From contig NC_009391.2 in the NCBI RefSeq assembly GCF_000002875.2, forward strand, positions 174,486 to 238,485: 64,000 bases of DNA, in the 5' to 3' direction. Positions 48,301 through 51,300 of the stretch are shown piece after piece; the stretch's first letter is position 1; every line of letters begins with the position of its first letter. Below the pieces are notes generated by a model. It ran no database searches. It had not been told where the DNA came from and saw only the letters and a program-made list of their open reading frames with translations. Position numbers and translations under genes: made by a program. This DNA is from Leishmania infantum JPCM5 (lineage: Eukaryota > Euglenozoa > Kinetoplastea > Trypanosomatida > Trypanosomatidae).

Positions 48301-51300
48301 GTAAAGCTGCGTGCGTGTCTGTCCTCGCTGCGGAGTGCGGTCGCCGAGGGCATCTGTTCGGCCGAAGAGGCACGCATCATCACTAAAAGTCTCACAATGG
48401 CTTCAGATGCCTTCAAGGAGTTGTGTGCAATCTTGCGCAAGCCGCAGTTTTCTCTTTACACAGCCATGATGCAAGACACAATACAGGATTTCCTTCTGAC
48501 TATCAAGTCAGAAGTGGACGATGCGGCTGAAGTGCTGCGGGGTATGACGGAGCGCCGCCGAGCTCTGTTCCCGCGGTTTCGATTCCTGCCCGACTCGGAG
48601 CTCACAGGGTTTCAATCCGTGCAAAGCGCTCACAGTTTTGCCCACCTCTTCCAATACCTGTATCCGCGCATCACCGATGTAGAGGTGATAGACGGGGTTG
48701 TCACTGCTGTGGTGGCGGCGGACGGCGCACGCTTGCCCTTGTCTTCTCCTTTGGCGCTCACGAAAGATATCCCAGACGCTTGGATTCAGTGCTTTGACCG
48801 TGCGGTGCGCGCGTCTCTCGTCGCTGCAGTCAAGGAGTGCGTGGCTGCGTATTACCGATGCAACCTGGAATCTTGGTTGCGGCAATGGTGCGGTCAGGTA
48901 ACGGTGCTCGCGCTGCGGATTCTACATACGGAAGGACTGCGGCGGGCACTACAGCTCGCTGGGCAAAATGGGCTGATTGCCTACATCACCAAAGTGTCAG
49001 ACCTCTGCAGCGCTATCAGCAAGCTGGCGCAGGGCGGATACGACAAAGGCGCGAAGGGTGGGCAACCGCGCAGCTACGAAGCCGTCGTGGCAGCTGCTCT
49101 GGCGTACGAGGAGTTCGCCTTGAGAGAGGTTCAGCTAGCGGTAGAATGGCACGTGAGCAGTGTCACCGAGCTGGAGTCTACTCGTGTCGTGCAGACTTTT
49201 CTTACACCGGCGGAGGATGGCATCTGCGTTCGCATGATGGGCGTTCTCTTCGACTACGGGCTGGAATTCCTCGGGCATGCCAATGCACCAATGATGAGTG
49301 CGGCGCAGTGGGTGCAAATGGCGCCAGTGCTCGTCGATATGGAACTGTCCCGGAGTGTTTCGCTGGTGCGCGCCAGCGACGACGTTGCGGCGGAGGGAGA
49401 GGTCTTGGAAGCTGCCGCGATGCTGCTTGGACGCTTCTTCTTTCGGGTTGAAGCCACAGAGCATGTGCCCACCGAAACACTTCAACGTTTGCTACGCGGG
49501 TGTGTGGAAGTTGGGGCGTTGGCTTGTGTGATGAATTGTGAGGCCGTGCCGAGGGCCGTGCTGGAGGAAGCCGTTTTGCCTATTGCCACCGCCTCTGTCG
49601 AGCAGCGCCGTTCCTCCGTCTGGCAGTTGCCCTATGGTGGAAGAGACGACATGGTCTCGGTTTCCGTGCACCCGCTGTTCCGGTTGGCCTTCTCTGCCGC
49701 TGCGCCGGTAGCGTTGCCCCGCAGTCTCGACCTCATCTGCAGAGAGGTGCGCGTAGCTCCCTTCGATGTTCAAGAAGCGCTGCACGATTATCTGACTCGG
49801 ACGGGGGTGGTACCAGGGGGTCCTCTGTCCGCTGAGGAAGCTGAGTTTGCCAAGCTGTACCGACAGCTGCAAGAGTTGCATCCGACCGTCTTCACGGCGC
49901 GCCAACTGCGCGTGGTGCTGCGCGAGGCGTTCGCGAGTGCTGATACGCGCGATGGGAGGGGGTCTAAGCTCATCGGGTCGTCACAGCAGCGAGTAGTACC
50001 GCGCCTTCTGACTGCCTTGGGAAGTGTTTTCACGGCTTTCTTCTTCTCCACAGACGGCGAGGCGGTTCAACGGAGCTTAGAGACGCAGATTAAGGCAAAA
50101 CTACTGCTACCCTCGTGCAATGGGGTCGCCCCGCAGGGCTGGTACGACCCGCCTGCCCAGCGGACCACACAAAGCGCGGCAGCGGATGCCTTGCTCGAGC
50201 GCTTTACATCATGGATGAATGTTCACCGGCGCGTGCTCCTTGTCGGACCGCCGTTCGCGGGGAAGACGCGACTGTGGCGAACGTGGGCTGGCTCCCAATC
50301 GCCGCTGATCGTCTCGCTGCCTCTCATATCCGCGGCGGACTTTTATGGCACCTCTACGGAGCCGAGTTTTCTTTCCTTGATCACTTCACAGATGACGGCT
50401 GCTCGACACAGGAGCAAGGCTCCGGTTGTAGTGATGGAGGATGTCGACTCGGCCTCATCCTTTGCACTCTTTCTGGGTTCTTGGCCGGACAGGGCACGGG
50501 TGCTGGAGGGAGAGCTGCACAACAGCAACAGCGTCATCACTAGCCCACTGGTGCGCGTGATCGGCACAGCGCAGGGGCTGCACCACGTTACACCCGGGAC
50601 CCTCAACCGGTTTGCGATGATGGCGCTCGCGGGGCCATCTTCGTGGCACGAAGGGATCTCTCACGCGCTGGGCTCCATGCCGGACGCAGAGTGGGTCGCG
50701 AGGGTGTTGGAGAAGCTTTTGCCACCGCTGGTGGAGCGTGCATCGAGGGCCTCGCCCGAGCTCGTAGGAAGGGCAAAGGAGCTGACAAACATGTACGCCA
50801 TGGCTCAACGCGCGGCAGCTCTGTGTAGTCGATGGTACGCCTACGCACTCACGCTTCATACACACAGAGGAGCGCTGGAATTGCAGGAGGACGAAGACGA
50901 GGTGCCGCTGCGCTTGTTTGCCGTGCGCTGTGCGGTGATGGCGGCTACGTGGTCGGTGGGACTCTCGCTCCCTATGGAAGATCGCGATGTATTGAAACTA
51001 TTGCTCCTCGGCGCAGAGACGGACGTGATGAAAGCGCTGGCGGACTGCGAGCTCTCTGGAGAGATCTTTCCAGTCTTGTTGAAGGATAGCGTGAGTCCGC
51101 TCGAGCAGGTCGTCCTGCCTCGTGGGTGGATATCGTTTGAGGAGGCAGCTACGCGCACCGACTTGCCTCTGTCGTGGTCAGCAGATTCCCACACCGATCC
51201 GCATCTCTGCGCGTGGTCGCAGGTGTTTTTGACACCGTCGCGAGCGGCGATACTGCGGGCGACGGAGTGTTTGATCAACTGCGGCCAACACGTTCTCTTC

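Follow-up and report, generated by a model that had tools for sequence, protein, structure and literature searches.

A divergent Leishmania dynein heavy chain without the AAA1 catalytic motifs belongs to a conserved family of probable pseudo-motors

The window, by which we mean the whole 64,000-nucleotide stretch of DNA that was analysed, holds a dynein-like open reading frame on the plus strand that runs from an ATG at 45331 to a stop at 59880, 14,550 bases in all, which bears out the earlier note's description of a frame free of stops over 14.5 kb. The program-made reading frame starts further upstream, at a TTG at 45271, and the protein length of 4849 aa used here is counted from the first ATG, at 45331. 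A protein search matched the product to L. donovani protein P0002 with 100% identity and equal length, and by sequence match the host of the window is a member of the Leishmania donovani complex. Elsewhere in the window the minus strand carries a nearby gene with a match to the Pfam paraflagellar rod family (17146-19575, E 7.5e-9), a gene for a Golgi pH regulator-like protein (25391-27919) and one for a NUDIX-domain protein (29036-31798), and the plus strand carries a gene for a P-type cation ATPase (36082-39306). Up to the gap at 35269-36081 most large open reading frames are on the minus strand, and beyond it most are on the plus strand; the gap resembles a divergent strand-switch region that separates gene arrays. 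The dynein-like gene and its parts are as follows.

45331-59880, plus strand: complete open reading frame of the AAA1-less dynein heavy chain (translation; match to L. donovani P0002)
45331-47589, plus strand: N-terminal tail (matches to solved structures, the best named ones being the tails of DNAH1 and DNAH3, single-headed inner-arm dyneins)
47590-48840, plus strand: linker, Pfam DHC_N2 (residues 774-1190, 148 bits, E 4.5e-43)
49243-49740, plus strand: degenerate AAA1 module (profile alignment), AAA+ fold still predicted
49249-49278, plus strand: opening of AAA1, FDYGLEFLGH (in-frame translation)
49366-49422, plus strand: place of the AAA1 Walker A, VRASDDVAAEGEVLEAAAM, without a P-loop (translation, family alignment)
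49522-49542, plus strand: place of the AAA1 Walker B, ACVMNCE, canonical CFDEFNR (translation, family alignment)
50245-50268, plus strand: AAA2 Walker A, GPPFAGKT, intact (P-loop in 20 of 21 family members)
51304-51327, plus strand: AAA3 Walker A, AGPVAGKS (P-loop in 17 of 21 family members)
51493-51513, plus strand: AAA3 Walker B, CIDDLHL (C[IV]DD in 21 of 21 family members)
52870-52896, plus strand: degenerate AAA4 Walker A, GENAFGLRR, canonical GVGGSGRQS (alignment with canonical dyneins)
53578-54600, plus strand: stalk coiled coil and tip (AlphaFold2 model, mean pLDDT 88.3; Foldseek matches)
53968-54240, plus strand: predicted microtubule-binding tip with the motif SRVPEKGxLL...ELW (profile alignment, AlphaFold2 model)
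54598-55350, borders approximate, plus strand: AAA5-like module (hhalign against canonical dyneins)
55351-59877, start approximate, plus strand: C-terminal third, about 1,500 aa, in which AAA6 and the dynein C-terminal domain are not recognisable by sequence

Judged by its profile matches and the order of its modules, the protein is a divergent dynein heavy chain. An hhalign comparison with canonical dyneins was collinear from the tail to AAA5 (2459 columns, E 1.2e-87) and confirmed the succession of linker, AAA1 to AAA4, stalk and AAA5. The match of the tail to DNAH1 (9d2f_U) covers query residues 320-1339 at E 1e-25, while a Pfam scan of the protein gave no match to DHC_N1, found AAA_7 at 8e-7 and returned AAA_6, AAA_8 and AAA below threshold only. 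Dynein rings are matched by a structure model of AAA1-AAA3, of middling confidence (pLDDT 64.3), and the AAA1 portion of this model matches an AAA+ fold. Pfam MT had no match in the protein, and stalk and tip were recognised by predicted structure, with Foldseek matching the stalk model to the dynein stalks 8i3j, 3wuq and 5ayh at an identity of 12-16% to the dynein rows; on this model, the tip likely binds microtubules. In the C-terminal part, PF03028 gave no match at E 0.01 and profile comparison was likewise without a match; this Pfam model is also described as having missed true dyneins (PMC2239267). The alignments show that the protein has retained the linker, the order AAA1-AAA5, the stalk and the tip, and that nucleotide-binding motifs are present in AAA2 and, for the majority of members, in AAA3.

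Re-translation placed the three stretches that the earlier note had singled out in frame, FDYGLEFLGH at 49249-49278, VRASDDVAAEGEVLEAAAM at 49366-49422 and ACVMNCE at 49522-49542, and its claim that AAA1 has lost both Walker A and Walker B holds for a whole family of related proteins. Between the start of AAA1 and AAA2 the Walker A pattern [AG]xxxxGK[ST] is absent in all 21 members, window protein included, as is the DE Walker B of AAA1 in the family alignment, whereas all 12 further dyneins identified in this genome keep GPAGTGKT and C[FL]DEFNR. The Pfam model of AAA1, AAA_6, scores 21 bits in the window protein, compared with 358-508 bits (best piece) in those 12 dyneins. Among the 122 non-family dyneins, which are all those returned by three protein searches and in which the patterns were sought anywhere in the protein, a strict AAA1-type Walker A occurs in 119 and an equally strict AAA1-type Walker B in 118; the three Walker A exceptions are variant AAA1 P-loops with GKT still present, and the fourth of the Walker B exceptions has GFDEFNR. 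The annotated insect and sea-louse dyneins P0101 and P0034 show the odd AAA1 P-loops GPTATGKT and GETATGKT, which are possibly true variants or the product of bad gene models.

An intact P-loop elsewhere in AAA1, which the earlier note had named as a finding that would speak against it, was rejected, the pattern search having found none before AAA2 in any of the 21 members. A mis-assigned AAA1 was likewise rejected, by P-loop spacing and profile alignment: the first P-loop downstream, GPPFAGKT at 50245, falls on that of AAA2 in the alignment and lies about 290 residues past the expected AAA1 site, while 281 residues separate the AAA1 and AAA2 P-loops of the canonical dynein C36, taken for comparison. 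The sensor-I/PGYAGR stretch of AAA1 was not recognisable by eye in the family alignment; P0014 has an asparagine inside the former sensor-I stretch, which counts against the pseudo-motor reading. Judged from its motifs, AAA1 has close to certainly lost catalysis.

Two protein searches gave 22 members of the family, and L. donovani P0002 was dropped from them because it perhaps derives from the window's own assembly and so is not independent; the 21 counted here are P0001 (the window protein), P0003-P0016 and P0019-P0024. Their open frames span 4529-5304 aa, and identity to P0001 ranges from 94% to 29% among the 15 members of alignment A1 and is 26-28% over AAA1-AAA3 in the deepest seven members. 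A profile built from 14 members gave scores of 3802-5516 bits for the seven deep-clade members and 179 bits for the dynein that followed them (best 120 of 201 matches); the remaining members are missing from that list because the word filter of the search takes a single member as its starting point. The nine of 21 members that are assigned come from Leishmania, Porcisia and Leptomonas, all Leishmaniinae, and no match named as Trypanosoma brucei or T. cruzi stood among the matches listed, one list holding the best 120 of 201, in which Leishmania members likewise do not appear.

At the place of the AAA1 Walker B, Leishmania and Porcisia mostly have [CS][VL]xNCE, Leptomonas and three further members have CLANCE, the seven deep-clade members have CFHD or CLHD, and P0010 and P0015 deviate from all of these; read from these alignments, the loss of AAA1 predates the genus Leishmania. 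The ring has worn further in some lineages. In four of the seven deep-clade members (P0020, P0022, P0023 and P0024) the AAA3 P-loop is gone, with GK changed to GR, and P0020 has lost the AAA2 P-loop too and has no P-loop anywhere in the protein, so that nucleotide at AAA3 appears not to be needed throughout the family. An AAA2 arginine, which was placed by eye and which we take to be the one that would serve AAA1, persists only in Leishmania, Porcisia and P0010, and its absence from the other members argues for additional ring loss there.

A DHC_N2 profile search of the genome (32.07 Mb, 75 contigs) returned 13 dynein genes, a lower bound. Profile searches turned up just 12 canonical heavy chains, whereas ten axonemal chains, a cytoplasmic one and two for IFT would make 13, so that one may fall in an assembly gap. 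In a tree made by a quick method from 31 sequences and 1332 columns, the family, represented by 7 of its 21 members, six of them flagged for unusual composition, forms one clade (SH-aLRT 100) on a branch of about 2.5 changes per site, with the join point to other dyneins not fixed. Nearest to it by sequence and profile are the single-headed inner-arm dyneins DNAH1, DNAH3 and DNAH7 (IDAa-e, g), the nearest named matches being DNAH1 and DNAH3 among solved structures and DNAH7, DNAH3 and DNAH1 in the profile search (best 120 of 201). These dyneins share with the window protein the lack of DHC_N1 but, unlike the family, have an intact AAA1. A 2007 dynein survey that included L. major is described as having chosen its score cut-off so as to keep extremely divergent sequences out (PMC2239267), and the window protein may thus have been omitted from it. 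Among the papers listed, judged by title and abstract opening, we found no natural AAA1-less dynein of trypanosomatids and, under the gene's systematic names, no description of such a dynein, though supplementary tables may name the gene; a term search of PMC6615630 and PMC7617938 gave no match.

In the 96-nm repeat of the L. tarentolae axoneme (PDB 9Y6S), the outer-arm and seven inner-arm heavy chains are reported as assigned (PMC12637542), and these dyneins have genus and superfamily in common with the family. The L. tarentolae member P0005, however, reached only 34.8 bits against its best 9y6s chain, whereas three other dyneins of the window's genome (3 of the 12), used as controls, matched their 9y6s chains across 1333 aa at 2790-3016 bits. 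With no near match in 9Y6S, P0005 is not one of the modelled chains, and membership in the modelled 96-nm repeat was rejected. Its absence may place the protein outside the repeat, at sites of low occupancy or in a role in flagellum assembly. Low-occupancy axonemal sites may be compatible with absence from the cryo-EM model; the inner arm IDAc is described as sitting on a subset of doublets only (PMC12637542).

The conserved pseudo-motor dynein is real, and the dynein-like protein is probably a retained clamp or regulator rather than a walking motor; the structural role that the earlier note suggested for it is a putative one. Known dyneins are ATP-driven motors that act through AAA1. Giving it about an even chance on the motifs and the structure models, we propose that the protein is a static microtubule clamp or anchor, perhaps tuned by AAA3, outside the modelled repeat. 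The power-stroke ATPase AAA1 would have been erased before the 21 members split, and the gene kept since. Established dynein mechanics suggest that, with no ATP turnover at AAA1, the linker would not swing and the tip would lack AAA1-driven release, so that the linker would stay static and the grip of the stalk unchanged because AAA1 could not cycle ATP. Nucleotide at AAA2 and AAA3 may hold the ring, the tip would grip the microtubule and the tail would be tethered to another structure, and the whole might be a microtubule clamp that stays fixed or switches slowly. We are a little more tentative, somewhat short of an even chance, about the wider view that the family is an old separate class of dyneins in Leishmania and its relatives, perhaps in kinetoplastids at large, in which a half-megadalton clamp, possibly gated by AAA3, has had its power-stroke site erased and stands outside the 96-nm dynein row. 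If the loss is clade-wide, the dynein scaffold would be usable without a power stroke, and the family would be natural material for testing AAA2, AAA3, linker and stalk on their own.

A different role, which we consider unlikely but still worth weighing, is that of a regulatory partner that forms no static link itself and instead tunes a catalytically active dynein heavy chain by pairing with it or docking onto it, much as pseudokinases do with kinases. Inactive subunits are common in AAA+ rings, and the kept linker, ring modules and stalk would permit pairing, yet DHC_N1 gave no match and the tail resembles those of single-headed inner-arm dyneins.

Rather less probable is an assembly factor that would help to build the flagellum rather than beat it, by analogy with human DNHD1, which, compared by description, appears to be the closest known analogue. 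DNHD1 is described as dynein-like and 4753 aa long (4849 aa in the window protein), is classed as an orphan, and has been linked to the form of the sperm flagellum and to cilium number and length. Knock-down of zebrafish DNHD1 is reported to have left fewer and shorter cilia, while their beat frequency did not change significantly (PMC9749982), and an assembly role would also fit the absence of P0005 from the modelled 96-nm repeat. Staining of IFT20 and CFAP65 in human sperm carrying DNHD1 mutations is, however, described as being as in controls (PMC9916431), so that DNHD1's own mode of action is not settled. No DNHD1-named sequence was among the matches listed in the three protein searches, one of which gave the best 120 of 201 and in which many rows were nameless. 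PMC8754002 calls this orphan dynein-like gene a "ghost gene" that is possibly turning into a pseudogene, whereas the AAA1-less family is conserved. This family may supply a conserved and tractable counterpart to the orphan human gene, in organisms in which tagging and knock-out are routine.

Slow decay of a paralogue under relaxed constraint is improbable. The protein appears to evolve faster than other dyneins, on a rough comparison over differing regions in which its match to L. tarentolae reached 8783 bits over 4869 aa (1.80 bits per residue) and three paralogues, over 1333 aa, scored 3015.6, 2789.9 and 2888.7 bits (2.09-2.26 bits per residue), and the loss of further P-loops in some members could be read in the same way. 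With P0015 and P0016, AAA1 shares just 29% and 26% identity, under the tail, AAA3, AAA4 and the tip (50% and 41%) and above the C-terminal third (28% and 20%) and the AAA1-AAA2 spacer (24% and 18%), which suggests that the dead module is constrained, but less than the remaining ring over long times. Against decay stand the 21 long open frames, kept down to the deepest identities over AAA1-AAA3, and the identities to L. major, L. mexicana, L. tarentolae, L. braziliensis, Porcisia and Leptomonas, which are 98, 93, 87, 84, 78 and 45% in AAA1, above the 90, 86, 75, 67, 53 and 32% of the C-terminal third; those of the tip are 97, 89, 79, 78, 73 and 57%. The earlier note had held that the gene is under selection rather than decaying: retention of the gene is supported by protein conservation, with equal loss in 21 of 21 members and long frames in distant ones, but the conservation of AAA1 itself, good within Leishmaniinae, is average to low in distant members.

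That the protein is still an ATP-driven motor, with AAA3 (or AAA2) replacing AAA1, is very improbable: 17 of the 21 members have both a P-loop and a C[IV]DD Walker B at AAA3, but the other four lack the AAA3 P-loop, and known dyneins depend on ATP hydrolysis at AAA1 for movement. A sequencing error, mis-assembly or wrong frame is hardly credible and was rejected, since the check for a local error or deletion that the earlier note had suggested found that, among others, L. major, L. mexicana, L. tarentolae, L. braziliensis, Porcisia and Leptomonas have lost the AAA1 motifs in the same way, with the reading frame preserved.

The base composition of the locus also varies. G+C is 0.48-0.52 across 44001-48000, lower than in the remaining window, and third-position G+C in the dynein open reading frame rises from 0.55 in the first 1,500 bases to 0.65-0.77 further on (measured to 57330).
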